Below, one piece after another: positions 15,445 to 28,807 of a stretch of 29,632 nt of DNA; position 1 is the stretch's first letter; every line of letters begins with the position of its first letter. The translations under genes were made by a program, and so were the position numbers. The stretch is from a virus, in the IMG/VR virus record IMGVR_UViG_3300035698_020935, positions 1-29,632 of that record. One strand, given 5' to 3'. The notes under the pieces are model-generated. The model searched no databases. It worked only from the letters and a program-made list of their open reading frames with translations, and was not told where the DNA came from.

Positions 15445-15744
15445 ATGAACTCAACACTAAAAATATATGATGTATTTGAACTTGTAGATATGTTAAATGA
15501 AGATCAACATTATGGTAGAATCATAACAAAAAATCCTTGCATAAAAACTTTAAAAACAGGATTAAAAAAATACTATTGCATATGTGAAATGTGTAAAGAT
15601 AAAAAGGCGTTAATAATTCATCATAAAGACAAAAATAGAACCCATAATTCATTAATAAATTTTCAACTATTATGTAAGGTGTGTCATTATAAAATACATC
15701 ATTCTCAAGTTAATTATGAAAGAATAATATTACACTCACGTTAA
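15445..15744 (+). CDS. free-standing HNH endonuclease (homing type)
   Basis: This 99-residue protein has a compact HNH site: C47-x2-C50, then the H-H pair at 59-60 (LIIHHKDKNRTHNSLIN, with N68), then C77-x2-C80-H81 and H85-H86. The four cysteines should hold a structural zinc, and the histidines and asparagine bind the catalytic metal. Such small stand-alone HNH genes in viral genomes are usually mobile endonucleases inserted between operons. Here it sits between the late terminator and the next gene block, consistent with that. The ATG appears leaderless behind TTTATAAA. A role in packaging, as for HNH proteins next to terminases, is less likely at this position. Confidence 0.8.
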   Translation: MNSTLKIYDVFELVDMLNEDQHYGRIITKNPCIKTLKTGLKKYYCICEMCKDKKALIIHHKDKNRTHNSLINFQLLCKVCHYKIHHSQVNYERIILHSR

Positions 15745-19287: not shown

Positions 19288-19386
19288 ATGCATTTATACG
19301 AACAATTTTATACTGAATTAAACAATTTTCATAATGAAGAAAAGATAAAAAATCATATTGATGAATTACTAAAAAATAAAGGGTGA
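19288..19386 (+). CDS. very small acidic protein, function unknown
   Basis: This 32-residue frame (MHLYEQFYTELNNFHNEEKI and on to LKNKG) starts at ATG 19288 with GGAGGTG eight bases upstream. It ends within the ribosome-binding site of the nuclease gene. The strong initiation signal supports translation; it may be a small helical regulator or leader peptide for the nuclease. Confidence 0.45.
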   Translation: MHLYEQFYTELNNFHNEEKIKNHIDELLKNKG

Positions 19387-19391
19387 TAATA

Positions 19392-19907
19392 TTGCGTAGT
19401 TTTATTAGAATGACAATCTGTCCAGAGGATCTTAGTTGGGCTAAGGAAAAAAGCAAGAGTTTTGATGAGAAGAAATCTCATGAGAAGTTTGTTTGCCCAG
19501 ATAATTATATTGGTGTATTGGGTGAGTTGTATTTTAGTAAGTTATTAGAAAAGGAAGGCATAGATCATCAGTGGGTTGAGTTTGATAAAGATGATTACAC
19601 CCAGCCAGATTTCTATGTTCAAGGTAAGAGCATTGATGTTAAGACGAGTTTTGATTGTAAAATGTGGGTTCAGGATGGTAAATGGGATTATTACGTTTTT
19701 TGCAGGGTTAATCTTGAACTTAATGAGTTATTTTTTATTAGGTTTTGTAAGGGGAAGTTTATTACTGATGGTATTGAGAAAGGTGTTTTAAAGCAGATTG
19801 ATAAGGGACGGGTTAATAATCCTTATGTTGTGTCTATTGATCAGATGGAAAATATTGATTTATTGTTTAAGAATCTTGGGGTGAGTGAAGATGAAAAAAA
19901 AGATTAA
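19392..19907 (+). CDS. PD-(D/E)XK family nuclease
   Basis: This 171-residue protein has the motif trio in order: E45 in GVLGELYFSKLL, P72-D73 in QPDFYV and D82-V-K84 in SIDVKTS, followed by a hydrophobic strand (WDYYVFCRVNL). This is the usual arrangement of small PD-(D/E)XK endonucleases or exonucleases acting on DNA with magnesium. TTG 19392 is chosen because GGTGAT at 19382-19387 gives correct spacing; no ATG is nearby in frame until MTICPED. Its C-terminus overlaps the next gene by 17 bases. Neighbours point to recombination, host DNA degradation or defence. The fold is fairly sure; the substrate is unknown. Confidence 0.65.
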   Translation: MRSFIRMTICPEDLSWAKEKSKSFDEKKSHEKFVCPDNYIGVLGELYFSKLLEKEGIDHQWVEFDKDDYTQPDFYVQGKSIDVKTSFDCKMWVQDGKWDYYVFCRVNLELNELFFIRFCKGKFITDGIEKGVLKQIDKGRVNNPYVVSIDQMENIDLLFKNLGVSEDEKKD

Positions 19908-22823: not shown

Positions 22824-23207
22824 GTGGTGGTTATAATAACAAACGAACAAACAGATAAGATAAAACATGATATTGGAGTGAGAAACCTTTTTAATAATCC
22901 TGGTTTGATTGGTCTTGAGGAAGTGATTTATAAGGCTATGGAACCTGAACTAATTTATAATGGAGTGTTGTTTTGTAGTCCGGATATTGTTCTGATTGCT
23001 GATTATACTCTTGTTAGGGAGTTCGTGTTCGTGGAGTATAAATCTAATTATAGTGAAATAACCGAGCGTAAGGCTTTAGCTCAGTTGTCTAAGGCTTCAC
23101 GATGGGCTAATCATTATCTTGATCAGGAGCCAATGTGTATTTATGCTACAGGAAAACCTTTTCGTAATGTTAAGTGGCGTTTTAATCCTGAGGGAATGCC
23201 AGAATGA
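22824..23207 (+). CDS. PD-(D/E)XK family nuclease, small
   Basis: This protein of about 127 residues carries E32/E33 in LIGLEEVIYKAM, P53-D54 in FCSPDIVLIAD, and E71-Y-K73 in VFVEYKSNYSE. A helix with Q87 in ERKALAQLSKASRWA follows. This is the full PD-(D/E)XK core with a motif-IV-like Gln, as in RecB-like and archaeal restriction-type nucleases. The start is uncertain: GTG 22824 and GTG 22827 are adjacent, and neither has a good Shine-Dalgarno. It is coupled to the next gene (ATGA) and lies 360 bases before a DNA methyltransferase. A restriction-like pairing is conceivable but not shown. Confidence 0.65.
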   Translation: MVVIITNEQTDKIKHDIGVRNLFNNPGLIGLEEVIYKAMEPELIYNGVLFCSPDIVLIADYTLVREFVFVEYKSNYSEITERKALAQLSKASRWANHYLDQEPMCIYATGKPFRNVKWRFNPEGMPE

Positions 23208-23564: not shown

Positions 23565-24725
23565 ATGAACATACCAGAAATAACAAAACTACCAATTGAA
23601 CAAATAAAAACTGACGATGGAAACCCCAACGTAATGATCAAAAGTAAGTTCGAGGCGTTAAAAAAAAACATAGCCAAATACGGATTTCTAGTGCCTATAA
23701 TAACTAATAAGGATTTTCTTATTGCTGACGGAGAACACCGTTATAAAGCTGCAGTAGATCTTGGTTTTAAGGAGGTGTCTGCTGTCGTTCTTGATGTTAC
23801 TGAGGTTGATCGTCATATTATTCGACAGGTTATGAATAAGCTTAAAGGAGAACATGACCCGTTAATGGATGAGGAAGATTTTAAATGGATTTATGAAAAT
23901 GAGGGTTTTGCTGTTCTTAAAGAGCTTATGGATATTTCTGATCGTCAAGAGGTTAAGTTCTTGGCTAATATAATGCCTGATAATGAAGAAAGCTTTGATG
24001 AGGGTAAAAGTGTTAAGGAACCAAAATATAAGTTGGAAAATGGTGATATATGGGTTTTAGGGGAACACAGGCTAATGTGTGGTGATAGCACTAAAAAAGA
24101 AAACATAAAAACTTTGATTGATAACAATAAAATAAGATTAACACTCACTGACCCTCCTTATAATCTAGGGTATGAATATAATTCTTACAAAGATAATAAA
24201 ACACATATCGAATATAAAAATTGGTGTTCTGAATGGTTTGAATTAGTAAAAACAAATTCTGAAATCCAAGTAATTACTGTTGGTAATCAGAATTTGGGTA
24301 TGTGGTATCAAATTCATAATCCTAAATGGGTGATGTGTTGGTATAAACCAAATGGTCAGAGTGGTTGTAAATTAAGAGGTCTAAACAGGTGGGAACCCAT
24401 TATTGTTTATTTTGATAATAAGATTGATAGAATAATTCCTGAAGATACATATAATGTTCAAACAGGATATTTATCTGATAAAGATGATGGTATGAGAGAA
24501 TTACATAGTTGTCCAAAGCCCACACTTTTGTTTACTTCAATAATTCACGATTATACTAATAAAAATGATTGTATATTAGATGTTTTTGGAGGTTCTGGCA
24601 CGTCTTTAATTGTTTGTGAAAGTACTGGAAGAAAGTGTTTTATGATGGAGATTGATCCTGTTTATTGTAGTGTTATATTGGAGCGTTGGGAGTCTCTTAC
24701 GGGTCAGAAAGCTGTTAAACTATAA
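23565..24725 (+). CDS. ParB-like nuclease domain fused to DNA adenine/cytosine (N6/N4) methyltransferase
   Basis: In this 386-residue protein, residues 1-135 form a ParB/Srx-type domain: KLPIEQIKTDDGNPNVMIKS, then IADGEHRYKAA at 53-63, the usual GExR-like box. The methyltransferase follows, with D-P-P-Y at 196-199, S-C-P-K-P-T at 315-320 and the SAM-binding FGGSGT at 341-346. DPPY before FxGxG is the beta-class order and marks N6-adenine or N4-cytosine methylation. The ParB domain probably guides DNA binding. Such fusions are common in phages and mobile elements, usually as orphan enzymes that protect or regulate DNA. AAGGAGATGAT precedes the ATG. No cognate restriction subunit is certain, but PD-(D/E)XK proteins lie nearby. 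Confidence 0.85.
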   Translation: MNIPEITKLPIEQIKTDDGNPNVMIKSKFEALKKNIAKYGFLVPIITNKDFLIADGEHRYKAAVDLGFKEVSAVVLDVTEVDRHIIRQVMNKLKGEHDPLMDEEDFKWIYENEGFAVLKELMDISDRQEVKFLANIMPDNEESFDEGKSVKEPKYKLENGDIWVLGEHRLMCGDSTKKENIKTLIDNNKIRLTLTDPPYNLGYEYNSYKDNKTHIEYKNWCSEWFELVKTNSEIQVITVGNQNLGMWYQIHNPKWVMCWYKPNGQSGCKLRGLNRWEPIIVYFDNKIDRIIPEDTYNVQTGYLSDKDDGMRELHSCPKPTLLFTSIIHDYTNKNDCILDVFGGSGTSLIVCESTGRKCFMMEIDPVYCSVILERWESLTGQKAVKL

Positions 24726-25261: not shown

Positions 25262-25807
25262 ATGGTAAATGAATTAGTTACCGTAACAGATGTGGAACAG
25301 GAATTTAAGTTTCCCTATAAGTTTGGTTATGATGATAGAGAATTTAGTTATTGTGGTTATGAAAGACTTATTAGGTTATTAATTAAGGAGAACAAACATC
25401 CTGATAAGAAGCTTAAAGCACAAAGAAAAATAATAAATGAGTTGCTTCTTAGTTTATTTTGTGTTAAAGATATTTATGGTGGTAGATTACATAGAGGATA
25501 TCATCATTTTTGCAGTATAATTAGTGAAATATTATATGAAAAAAAGATTCCAGAGAGGTTTTATGAGATTAAAAGAATTTATTTGGATTATTATTATGGA
25601 AATAGTGAGAATGCGTATATTGATGTTATTCACATCAAACAAACGTTTACTTCTTTTATTAAACAAAGATATCCTTATAAGTATAAGAATTTTGTTGAAG
25701 TATTAGAATCAATAAGTAAACCTAGTGATCCTATTGGTTTTGATAAGTATGTTGATAAGATGTTTGATAAATTAAGACCAATGTTATTAGGAGTTGATAA
25801 AAAATGA
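25262..25807 (+). CDS. hypothetical protein, function unknown
   Basis: This 181-residue protein starts at ATG 25262 with GGTGA seven bases upstream. The sequence is helical and basic with many aromatics (KIPERFYEIKRIYLDYYYGN, FTSFIKQRYPYKYKNFVEVL). No catalytic motif or membrane segment was seen. It is coupled to the next small gene by ATGA and probably co-transcribed with the regulator candidate. Confidence 0.6.
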   Translation: MVNELVTVTDVEQEFKFPYKFGYDDREFSYCGYERLIRLLIKENKHPDKKLKAQRKIINELLLSLFCVKDIYGGRLHRGYHHFCSIISEILYEKKIPERFYEIKRIYLDYYYGNSENAYIDVIHIKQTFTSFIKQRYPYKYKNFVEVLESISKPSDPIGFDKYVDKMFDKLRPMLLGVDKK

Positions 25808-25950
25808 AATTAATAAATGATAAGAAACATATGGAAAACTTAGATAATCTAATAAAAGCTCAAGATAGAATAATAAAAACACTAGAAAAAACTATTGAAT
25901 TATTATACGAAAGAATAGAAATTATAAAAGGTAAAAAAAATGGGAGATGA
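25804..25950 (+). CDS. small coiled-coil protein
   Basis: This 48-residue protein contains an almost continuous heptad pattern (MENLDNLIKAQDRIIKTLEK, TIELLYERIEIIKGKKNGR), consistent with a coiled coil that dimerises. It starts by ATGA overlap and its end overlaps the next gene by 11 bases. Function unknown. Confidence 0.55.
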   Translation: MKLINDKKHMENLDNLIKAQDRIIKTLEKTIELLYERIEIIKGKKNGR

Positions 25951-26104
25951 ACTTAAAGAAGGTTATGAGTATGAATACGTTGTTGTTAGGCAGTTTACTG
26001 GTAGTTGGTTTTGGTTAGTAGTACTTACATTATTGTTTATTCCTTTTGGCATAATATATTTTTTTGTTAAATACCAACCACAACGAACAAAAGTACTAGA
26101 ATAA
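25940..26104 (+). CDS. small membrane protein
   Basis: This 54-residue protein has an acidic N-terminus (MGDELKEGYEYEYVVVRQF), one hydrophobic helix (WFWLVVLTLLFIPFGIIYFF) and a basic tail (KYQPQRTKVLE). That predicts a single-pass membrane protein. It overlaps the coiled-coil gene, which could be its cytoplasmic partner. Its stop codon lies within the next promoter repeat. Confidence 0.55.
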   Translation: MGDELKEGYEYEYVVVRQFTGSWFWLVVLTLLFIPFGIIYFFVKYQPQRTKVLE

Positions 26105-26132
26105 TATTGTTTAAAAAGAGAAAATATAAATA
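26100..26132 (+). promoter_or_regulatory. promoter, copy 3 of the repeated element plus TATA box
   Basis: AATAATATTGTTTAAA at 26100-26115 matches the first 16 bases of the elements at 5161 and 8015. A separate TATAAATA at 26125-26132 is centred 28 bases before the ATG at 26156, predicting a leaderless transcript for the truncated nuclease-like gene and the HNH gene. Confidence 0.6.
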
Positions 26133-26155
26133 CTACTTAGTCAGAATAAATAATC

Positions 26156-26299
26156 ATGGGTGAAGATTATAGTTTAGTAAATAGTAATCTCAGAAGATAC
26201 TTTAGTGCTTCTTCTACAAGAAACATAAACAAAATAGTACTAAACACAGGAAACAAAAAGATTTATATAGTTAATAAATCAGAAATAGCATATGTATAA
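26156..26299 (+). pseudogene. truncated N-terminal copy of the nuclease-like gene at 26828
   Basis: This 47-residue frame aligns without gaps to residues 10-47 of the protein at 26828. NLRRYF pairs with NLRKYF, LNTGN with LNTHN, and the run ends at SEIAY/TEIAY with about 20 identities in 38 positions. Its first codons also lie at the equivalent place. After EIAY it reads one Val and stops where the HNH gene begins. The gene has thus been cut at this point, or its 5' part was duplicated. It keeps a good leaderless promoter, so the fragment is probably expressed together with HNH. Whether it has a function of its own is unknown. Confidence 0.75.
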
Positions 26300-26831
26300 A
26301 AAATGTGAAGTTTGCAATAAAGAATTTTGGTCACCAAACAATAAACAAAGAAGCTGCAGTAGAAATTGTGGTAAAGTAATAAGTACGAGAAAATCAATCA
26401 AAATAACAAAAAAATGTATTATTTGTAATAAAGAATTTTTATCATTTCCAAGCCAACCAATTTTACATTGTAGTAAAAAATGTTCAATAATAACTGTTAA
26501 GAAAAAACTGAAGAAACATGGATTACCAAAAAATTGGCATAGTAAAATAGGATTTAAAAGTAAAGAAAATAATATAAAATGGAATGGTGGAAGATCAAAG
26601 TCATGTAAATACATCAAAATATTAGTTGAAAACCATCCATATTCTCATAGTGATGGTTATGTATTTGAACACCGACTCGTTATGGAAAAGCATCTTGGAA
26701 GATATTTAGATCCTAAAGAAATAATTCATCATATAGATATGAATGAGCATAATAATAATATTAATAACCTAATATTATTCGAAAATAATCTAAAACACAT
26801 GAGACACCATTATGATTTAAGAAAAAAATGA
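26292..26831 (+). CDS. HNH homing endonuclease with two N-terminal zinc fingers
   Basis: In this 179-residue protein two zinc knuckles (C5-x2-C8...C22-x3-C26 and C42-x2-C45...C60-x3-C64) precede the NNIKWNGGR box (about 93-101). The HNH_3-type core follows: GYVFEHRLVMEKHLGRYLD, then IIHHIDMNEHNNNINNLILF with H146-H147 and N155-N157, ending HMRHH. This is the typical structure of free-standing homing endonucleases, where the zinc fingers direct target recognition. The ATG at 26292 lies in the truncated upstream gene, and its stop overlaps the next gene (ATGA). The insertion into a broken gene copy supports a mobile origin. Codons are A-rich like its immediate neighbours. Confidence 0.85.
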   Translation: MYKKCEVCNKEFWSPNNKQRSCSRNCGKVISTRKSIKITKKCIICNKEFLSFPSQPILHCSKKCSIITVKKKLKKHGLPKNWHSKIGFKSKENNIKWNGGRSKSCKYIKILVENHPYSHSDGYVFEHRLVMEKHLGRYLDPKEIIHHIDMNEHNNNINNLILFENNLKHMRHHYDLRKK

Positions 26832-27157
26832 ATAAAAAACTTCAAGAAATAATTAATAATAATTTAAGAAAATATTTTGATTATTCAGTCAAACGAGAAT
26901 TAAATATAATAAAATTAAATACTCATAATACGAAAATGCATGAACTAAAAAAAACCGAGATAGCATATAACCTTCAAAAGGCTGGACATTCATTTATTTG
27001 TGAAGGTAAATTACTAAGTGATAATGGAAGGCCAGACATTACCGTACTAGATCTAAAAGAACCAATTGCTTACGAGATAATACACAGTGAAACAAACGAA
27101 AGTCTCGAAACTAAAAGAAAAAAATATCCTTTCAAATTCTTGGTGGTGAAAGCATGA
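26828..27157 (+). CDS. PD-(D/E)XK-like protein, complete copy
   Basis: This 109-residue protein carries MHELKKTEIAYNLQKAGHSF (E44), R-P-D at 68-70 in DNGRPDITVLD, and AYEIIHSETNES (E83), followed by a Lys-rich stretch (TKRKKYPFKFLVVKA). The order resembles PD-(D/E)XK nucleases. However, the usual ExK lysine is missing after E83, so catalysis would need a displaced Lys (K96/K98) or is lost. Its first 47 residues match the broken copy upstream of the HNH gene. It starts by overlap with the HNH stop (ATGA) and is coupled to the next gene. Confidence 0.55.
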   Translation: MNKKLQEIINNNLRKYFDYSVKRELNIIKLNTHNTKMHELKKTEIAYNLQKAGHSFICEGKLLSDNGRPDITVLDLKEPIAYEIIHSETNESLETKRKKYPFKFLVVKA

Positions 27158-27369
27158 AAAAGAATATTTTGGAGTTTAACATAACGCATTTAAGAACGGA
27201 TGACATAAGAAAATTTATTTCACAATTATATGATAGGAGAATAGGAAGAGATATATGTCTAATAATGAACAAACAATACTTTTATGATCTTTGTAGAACA
27301 ATACCAATAGAATTTGATGGTATACCAATAAGATTCCTAACTGAAGAAGAAAAAAATATAATACAATAA
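27154..27369 (+). CDS. small alpha-beta protein, function unknown
   Basis: This 71-residue protein starts by ATGA overlap with the nuclease-like gene. The sequence (NITHLRTDDIRKFISQLYDR and GIPIRFLTEEEKNIIQ) suggests a small alpha-beta fold. It is probably co-translated with the nuclease-like protein. Not recognised. Confidence 0.55.
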   Translation: MKKNILEFNITHLRTDDIRKFISQLYDRRIGRDICLIMNKQYFYDLCRTIPIEFDGIPIRFLTEEEKNIIQ

Positions 27370-27379
27370 AGGTTAAAGC

Positions 27380-27550
27380 ATGAAGAAAAAACTAACAGAC
27401 AAGGACATCGAACTTATTAACTCAAGCACTTATAAGATAGAATCAGTATTAAGAAAAGTTGATGACATGGAACACATAGTATTATTAAATACGGTAAGAT
27501 GGCATATAATAACTCATTTAAAAAAATCAATTAAGAAAAATGAAGGGTGA
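27380..27550 (+). CDS. small helical protein, function unknown
   Basis: This 56-residue helical protein contains KLTDKDIELINSSTYKIESV and VRWHIITHLKKSIKKNEG. ATG 27380 is near AAAGGTTAAAG, a modest ribosome-binding site. Its end overlaps the GGGTGAT signal of the next gene. Not recognised. Confidence 0.5.
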   Translation: MKKKLTDKDIELINSSTYKIESVLRKVDDMEHIVLLNTVRWHIITHLKKSIKKNEG

Positions 27551-27556
27551 TATATA

Positions 27557-27886
27557 ATGAAACTTGAAGAGTTAAAGGTCGAAGATGAAGTATGTTATGT
27601 AGAAAATGGTTTTCATAATCATAAATACATTTTTAAGATAACTAAAGTGACCAAGACCATGATAACATGCAATAATACAAGATTTAATCGAGAAACAGGT
27701 CGTGAAGTGGGAAGTCAAGGTTGGAACGTAATAGAAATAAAAATATTAACTGATGAATTAAGAAAAGAAATACATAAGAGTGGACTATTACGATTCGTAA
27801 GAAATTATACTCCAGAAAACCTTTCTTTTAACGCATTAAAAAAGATTCATGATATAATAATGGAAGATGACAAGAGAACAAGATGA
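27557..27886 (+). CDS. small beta-barrel-like protein, function unknown
   Basis: This 109-residue protein starts at ATG 27557 after GGGTGATAT. The N-terminal strands (EVCYVENGFHNHKYIFKITK, VTKTMITCNNTRFNRETGRE) form a layout common in small phage proteins: a strand-rich 'V-x-x-x-T-x-x-x-I-x-C-x-x-x-R-F-x-R-x-x-G' core. Helices follow (LTDELRKEIHKSGLLRFVRN). Proteins of this type are frequent in early regions of tailed viruses, but their function is unknown. The assignment is by pattern only. Confidence 0.5.
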   Translation: MKLEELKVEDEVCYVENGFHNHKYIFKITKVTKTMITCNNTRFNRETGREVGSQGWNVIEIKILTDELRKEIHKSGLLRFVRNYTPENLSFNALKKIHDIIMEDDKRTR

Positions 27887-27923
27887 TAATAACTTATAAT
27901 CCTAATTTAAGGAGATGATATGA

Positions 27924-28055
27924 ATGGTTAATACTTTAATTGAATCGTTAAATATGCAATTAAATGAAGCAATACTTGCAAGAAGAAAAGCAACTCTTAT
28001 GATGGTAGATTTAGAGAAACAAATCGATGAAATGGAGAAAAAGAAACCAAAATGA
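27924..28055 (+). CDS. small coiled-coil protein
   Basis: This 43-residue protein is dominated by a helix (LIESLNMQLNEAILARRKAT, MVDLEKQIDEMEKKK). ATG 27924 lies 10 bases after AAGGAGATGAT. An ATG at 27920 leads to an immediate stop and is not used. Its stop overlaps the next start. Confidence 0.55.
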   Translation: MVNTLIESLNMQLNEAILARRKATLMMVDLEKQIDEMEKKKPK

Positions 28056-28282
28056 CCAAATACGAATTTGGCGTAATGTCAAAAAAATGGAGTCTGGAAG
28101 CAGAAGACATGATAACAGCATACATTACAATGAGCTTATTCATAAAAAAAAACATTCCGATAGCAGTATACAAACCAACAAGAAACAGTTTCATGCCAAA
28201 AAACATACTAGAAGATAATAAAAACACATTCAATCCAGAAAAAATCAAAGAATGTACTGAAACAATCAAAGAGATGATATAA
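28052..28282 (+). CDS. small protein preceding the packaging genes, function unknown
   Basis: This 76-residue protein starts by ATGA overlap. It is helical and basic (KYEFGVMSKKWSLEAEDMIT, NTFNPEKIKECTETIKEMI). It lies four bases before the small terminase gene and shares its A-rich codon use at the start. Not recognised. Confidence 0.5.
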   Translation: MTKYEFGVMSKKWSLEAEDMITAYITMSLFIKKNIPIAVYKPTRNSFMPKNILEDNKNTFNPEKIKECTETIKEMI

Positions 28283-28285
28283 AAA

Positions 28286-28807
28286 ATGATCGAAGAAAAA
28301 ACAATAAAAAAACACCCATGCGCCCCACCACCAAGAGACGTAACAAGAAAAAGAAGAGAAAACATACTAACAATAATAGAAAACGTAGGATTCTGGAACT
28401 TAAGCGTTAAAGCACTATCAGAAAAATACGAGGTGTCTAAAAGAACAATCTACGATGATATTAAACACATCAAGAAAAATGTTACTTTCGACACTAAAGA
28501 AGTTAAAATAAATATTGCTATAACTTACAAGAGAGCTATTAATGAAATAATGAGAATAATAAACAGCACCACGATACTGCCCGGCACTAAAATCAATGCC
28601 ATTAACGCATTGAATAATACTAACAGGGGATTTATTGATGTTCTTCATTCGTTTGGTATATTGAAGAAAATGCCTGATGACATGACGGTTACTAACATTA
28701 ATCATAATCTTAATGCTGATCTTACTGATGAAGAAACTAAAGACTTGTTAAGTTTACTGGTGGAGAATAATGAGGAAGTTAAGGAATTACAAGAGACAAT
28801 AAAATAA
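28286..28807 (+). CDS. small terminase subunit
   Basis: This 173-residue protein has a helix-turn-helix at about residues 41-63 (VKALSEKYEVSKRTIYDDIK), preceded by a basic N-terminal arm (KRREN). The helical middle is VKINIAITYKRAINEIMRII, and the C-terminus is acidic. This matches phage small terminases, which bind the packaging site and hand DNA to the large subunit. It lies one gene before the large terminase. GAGATGAT precedes the ATG. Its first ~48 codons use A/C endings and later codons use T endings, an abrupt change in composition within one gene. Confidence 0.7.
   Translation: MIEEKTIKKHPCAPPPRDVTRKRRENILTIIENVGFWNLSVKALSEKYEVSKRTIYDDIKHIKKNVTFDTKEVKINIAITYKRAINEIMRIINSTTILPGTKINAINALNNTNRGFIDVLHSFGILKKMPDDMTVTNINHNLNADLTDEETKDLLSLLVENNEEVKELQETIK

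Follow-up and report, generated by a model that had tools for sequence, protein, structure and literature searches.

What sequence of events leaves a homing-type endonuclease gene between a broken copy and a complete copy of the same viral gene? The locus that raises this question lies in a metagenomic virus record of 29,632 nucleotides (IMGVR_UViG_3300035698_020935), analysed whole and here called the window, which carries no end repeats. On its plus strand, a 47-residue frame (F, 26156-26299) runs into an HNH_3 endonuclease gene encoding 179 residues (26292-26831), which in turn overlaps an intact gene encoding 109 residues (X, 26828-27157). An initial annotation of this DNA read the arrangement as a captured homing event, with the endonuclease lodged between a truncated and an intact, diverged allele of one nuclease-like gene. 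We find that the locus looks like the scar of homing, a known type of event, and that it is unusual in that the 5′ remnant holds the likely promoter of the HNH gene.

The homology of F to X, which identifies F as the 5′ remnant of an X-family gene, is secure. BLASTP aligns F without gaps to residues 7-47 of X, with 20 identities in 41 positions (E=3e-12), and the Smith-Waterman score of the pair is 103, compared with a maximum of 57 among 20,000 shuffles of F and with 44 for the second-best frame of the window. The alignment had been placed at residues 10-47 with about 20 identities; all 20 do fall there, but the match begins at residue 7. The aligned codons are 61% identical as DNA, with the greatest identity at codon position 2, and give a dN of 0.41 and a dS of 1.95 (dN/dS 0.21). 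Since F and X are only 49% identical, the duplication or capture is old or the donor distant.

The break point can be placed to the base. Homology between F and X stops with codon 46 of F (TAT, 26291-26293), and the HNH start codon (ATG, 26292-26294) overlaps that same codon, while the V codon and TAA that close F (26294-26299) lie inside the HNH frame and are HNH coding sequence. The final bases that F and X have in common, ATAGCATAT, occupy 26285-26293 in F and the matching codons of X at 26960-26968, and these are the sole two copies on the plus strand of the window. The claims that F ends within one residue of the shared EIAY, with shared bases, and that the HNH gene starts exactly at this break and overlaps F are therefore upheld, as is the overall order of truncated copy, HNH gene (intact, at the exact break) and full, diverged X. 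We do not read a cut site into the nine-base match, since these are aligned codons and homology alone predicts that much. At the other end, the HNH stop and the X start do overlap as described, sharing ATGA (26828-26831), but this tells nothing of an insertion: in related viruses, too, the start of X usually overlaps the preceding gene. A search of both strands from 25800 to 28300 finds nothing resembling X residues 48-109 outside X itself; the allele from which F derives has no 3′ remnant, and the two halves of a split gene are not both kept.

The inserted gene is an HNH endonuclease gene, as annotated. Its product matches PF13392 (HNH_3) at E=5.2e-8, with 32.8 bits against a curated cut-off of 24.8, and phrog_20891 at E=1.2e-17; comparison with relatives shows the catalytic residues HH...N...H to be intact (HHIDMNEHNNNINNLILF...HMRHH), and the cysteine-rich, Zn-ribbon-like N-terminus resembles theirs. 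HNH_3 genes are scattered in this virus group, which we collected by tail-tube protein and terminase: with the window counted among them, 5 of the 11 related records carry one, at differing places, and in L096 the gene sits precisely between two intact tail genes. Among 80 relatives of the HNH gene in other viruses, none was found with a truncated and a complete version of a single gene on its two sides, a test that is only partly reliable at a few loci where the HNH frame is short; the hits in L010 and L011 were rejected on the ground that their layout differs.

X proves to belong to a real gene family, of which four members were reached solely through terminase relatives. Searches with peptide patterns (viral and genome contigs) and tblastn (phages and plasmids) return no X relative, and the whole records of 50 HNH viruses hold none. 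The homologue in L151 is found by tblastn (E=2e-7), and those in L147, L109 and L149 by profile searches, confirmed over 46 records; all four are distant from X (30-33% identity). Each of these viruses has a single, uninterrupted X gene that continues past the EIAY position, with no HNH gene nearby, which answers the question of whether whole alleles of the interrupted gene exist in related viruses. In L149, the X start is overlapped by the stop of a gene for a small Zn-ribbon protein (1828-2013), which has a weak pairwise match to part of the N-terminus of the window's HNH protein; at E=0.002, this is too slight for us to treat the small gene as a relic of an HNH gene.

The description of the interrupted gene as nuclease-like holds for its predicted fold and less so for its active site. 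From a single sequence the prediction is uninformative (pLDDT 38), but a five-row alignment of homologues yields a model with pLDDT 78.8 and pTM 0.72, whose core order, alpha-beta-beta-beta-alpha-beta, is that of PD-(D/E)XK enzymes, and we accordingly describe X as having a predicted PD-(D/E)XK-like nuclease fold. The best structural matches of the model are restriction-endonuclease-like proteins, and R4TA21 of Haloarcula californiae tailed virus 2 (TM 0.68) also ranks among the best; matches in the PDB are weak, with E-values of 0.19 and above. Unlike PD-(D/E)XK proteins such as R4TA21, X has no sequence-family match and lacks the motif lysine, which is absent from all five members (YEII, LEVL, FEIE, YEFE and FEFE), so that nuclease activity of X is only putative. 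Two glutamates of X, E59 and E83, are conserved. Two other small proteins of the window, at 22824-23207 and 19383-19907, appear PD-(D/E)XK nuclease-like by eye, and the latter has a relative near X in L151 (1336-1845).

F is recognisably a member of this family, and the family profile recovers it at E=3.6e-4 over 46 records. In the X model, F ends within the first core helix of the nuclease fold and includes no core strand, and hence cannot be a nuclease. It has also lost H38, E39 and L40 of the family, although every one of the five members has H38 and L40; the codons at this site now read ATT TAT ATA GTT AAT. At positions that distinguish F from X and for which the relatives permit a decision, they side with X in 11 columns and with F in 3 (p=0.057).

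The codons that replaced H-E-L contain TTTATATA (26262-26269, plus strand), a putative TATA box for the HNH gene that starts exactly 30 nt before its ATG; the window holds just one other octamer of this kind. Perfect boxes at -30 to -33 precede 4 of 7 HNH genes in this virus group against a background of about 1% of ATGs, a comparison designed after the first case had been seen and whose p-value is thus generous. These boxes suggest that HNH genes of this group come with leaderless TATA promoters or capture them, and that the F remnant now serves as the promoter of the HNH gene, which here has apparently been made from the broken gene. A second, shorter HNH-like frame in the window (15445-15744) scores below the cut-off for PF13392 (13.3 bits), also matches the HNH gene L089:7928-8524, and is preceded by a perfect TATA box, 33 nt upstream of the start codon. 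F itself appears to keep a leaderless promoter of its own, as had been proposed: TATAAATA (26125-26132, plus strand), a putative archaeal TATA box, starts 31 nt before the F ATG.

The open frame, its own putative leaderless-type promoter and a dN/dS below 1 would also suit the view that F is kept as a short protein, corresponding to the N-terminal domain of X, with a regulatory role towards X or the HNH. We regard this as improbable, given the loss of H38, E39 and L40, two of them invariant, a branch longer than that of X, and an end that falls inside a nuclease-core helix. The earlier suggestion that F acts as a dominant or regulatory protein fares poorly on the same loss of H-E-L, on the 11 columns to 3, and on a 3′ end that is likely HNH promoter sequence.

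How, then, did the three genes come together? We lean slightly towards an origin in which an X allele was disrupted when the HNH gene arrived, perhaps through one-sided repair of a double-strand break, while a complete, diverged X either remained or came along. A free-standing HNH_3 homing-type endonuclease gene would have split an X-family gene behind its codon 46, leaving the promoter and the first 46 codons, with the 3′ part lost and a complete, diverged X after the HNH gene. The HNH enzyme, or a relative of it, may have cut the resident X allele; the right end would then have been repaired by homology with a donor in which the HNH gene lay directly before the donor's own X, and the left end joined to the HNH start through microhomology. 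The 5′ fragment would have been retained as the carrier of sequence used for HNH expression, presumably as promoter, and the outcome would be this fragment followed by the HNH gene and by a complete X, the 3′ end of which may be chimeric. A zero-gap junction, at which the tail of F after codon 46 is HNH coding sequence, supports this origin, as do the missing 3′ half, the single, HNH-free X genes of four relatives, the differing places of HNH_3 genes and the box at -30 of the HNH ATG. Against it stand the microhomology at the HNH start, which amounts to only about 2 nt, the low identity of F and X, and the failure to find this layout among the 80 HNH relatives. Because HNH arrival and truncation fall at the same base, they are most simply explained as a single event. 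No close relative of this virus without the HNH gene was found, and the order of events is hence not seen. The captured homing event as first proposed is partly supported: the broken copy, the HNH gene at the break and the intact, diverged copy stand, and the uninterrupted alleles and scattered HNH_3 genes of related viruses agree with it. Cutting of X by the HNH enzyme, the donor origin of X, the use of the box as promoter and the joining of truncation and arrival into one event are inferred.

Tandem duplication of X could instead have come first, with the HNH gene later entering or replacing the 3′ half of the first copy, unrelated to any cleavage of X. F and X are indeed mutually closest (47% identity, versus 19-38% to the others), the low dN/dS suggests that most divergence accrued under constraint on both copies, and free-standing homing endonucleases can drive segmental amplification (PMC13096335). 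This course of events is possible but doubtful in our view, as all four relatives are single-copy and two events meeting at one base are needed. An assembly error fusing two viral strains, conceivable in a metagenomic record, is very unlikely: open frames, neat end overlaps and correct box-to-start spacing for both F and the HNH gene are unexpected in a chimera. A further reading makes the locus a natural cleave-and-rescue element, in which the HNH gene moves together with an intact but diverged version of the very gene that it disrupts. If so, a virus that is hit would lose its own X and depend on that of the element, and the intact X, as rescue copy, would make the locus a natural counterpart of engineered cleave-and-rescue drives; we rate this a long shot.

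Breakage on HNH arrival, the origin that we prefer, has precedents. Homing in T4 can proceed by one-sided illegitimate repair at microhomology, with homology at the other end, and HNH homing endonuclease genes split a viral gene in Aeh1 (mobE in nrdA) and in T4 (mobA in gene 60); both gene halves persist there as separate coding regions, and the NrdA of Aeh1 forms an active enzyme (PMC2988022). The present locus is similar in that an HNH gene splits a viral coding gene and would be expressed through host-gene signals or overlap, and differs in having lost the 3′ half and in having another, complete copy downstream. In fungal mitochondria, mobile ORFs in atp6, atp9, cox2 and nad3 are accompanied by a second, diverged version of part of the gene that they interrupt, probably derived from a donor (PMC3630166). 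This combination with an endonuclease gene recurs here, but whereas in the fungi a foreign C-terminus is joined in frame to the host gene, it is the 5′ part that is duplicated in the window and the new copy is complete. In T6, SegB is associated with segmental amplification (PMC13096335), which likewise ties a free-standing homing endonuclease to duplication of a nearby gene; SegB is a GIY-YIG enzyme and its repeats are recent and unstable, unlike the old, diverged copies described here. A limited search of the literature turned up no other 5′ remnant accompanied by a complete second copy. The arrangement mirrors the C-terminal duplications seen in fungi, and it extends the known cases in which free-standing HNH endonucleases disrupt genes to an archaeal-type virus.

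This virus probably has an archaeal host, to judge by TATA boxes at leaderless spacing in the window and by the apparent content of two frames in a related virus (G007). In G007, a frame at 1758-2654 of L103 resembles, as read from its sequence, an archaeal-type S-adenosylmethionine synthetase, and a frame that reads as a family B DNA polymerase adjoins it. Elsewhere in the window, the gene at 23565-24725 encodes a fusion of a ParB-like domain with an N4/N6 DNA methylase, and relatives of this protein lie near the terminase gene in L128, L129, L145, L147, L151 and L155.
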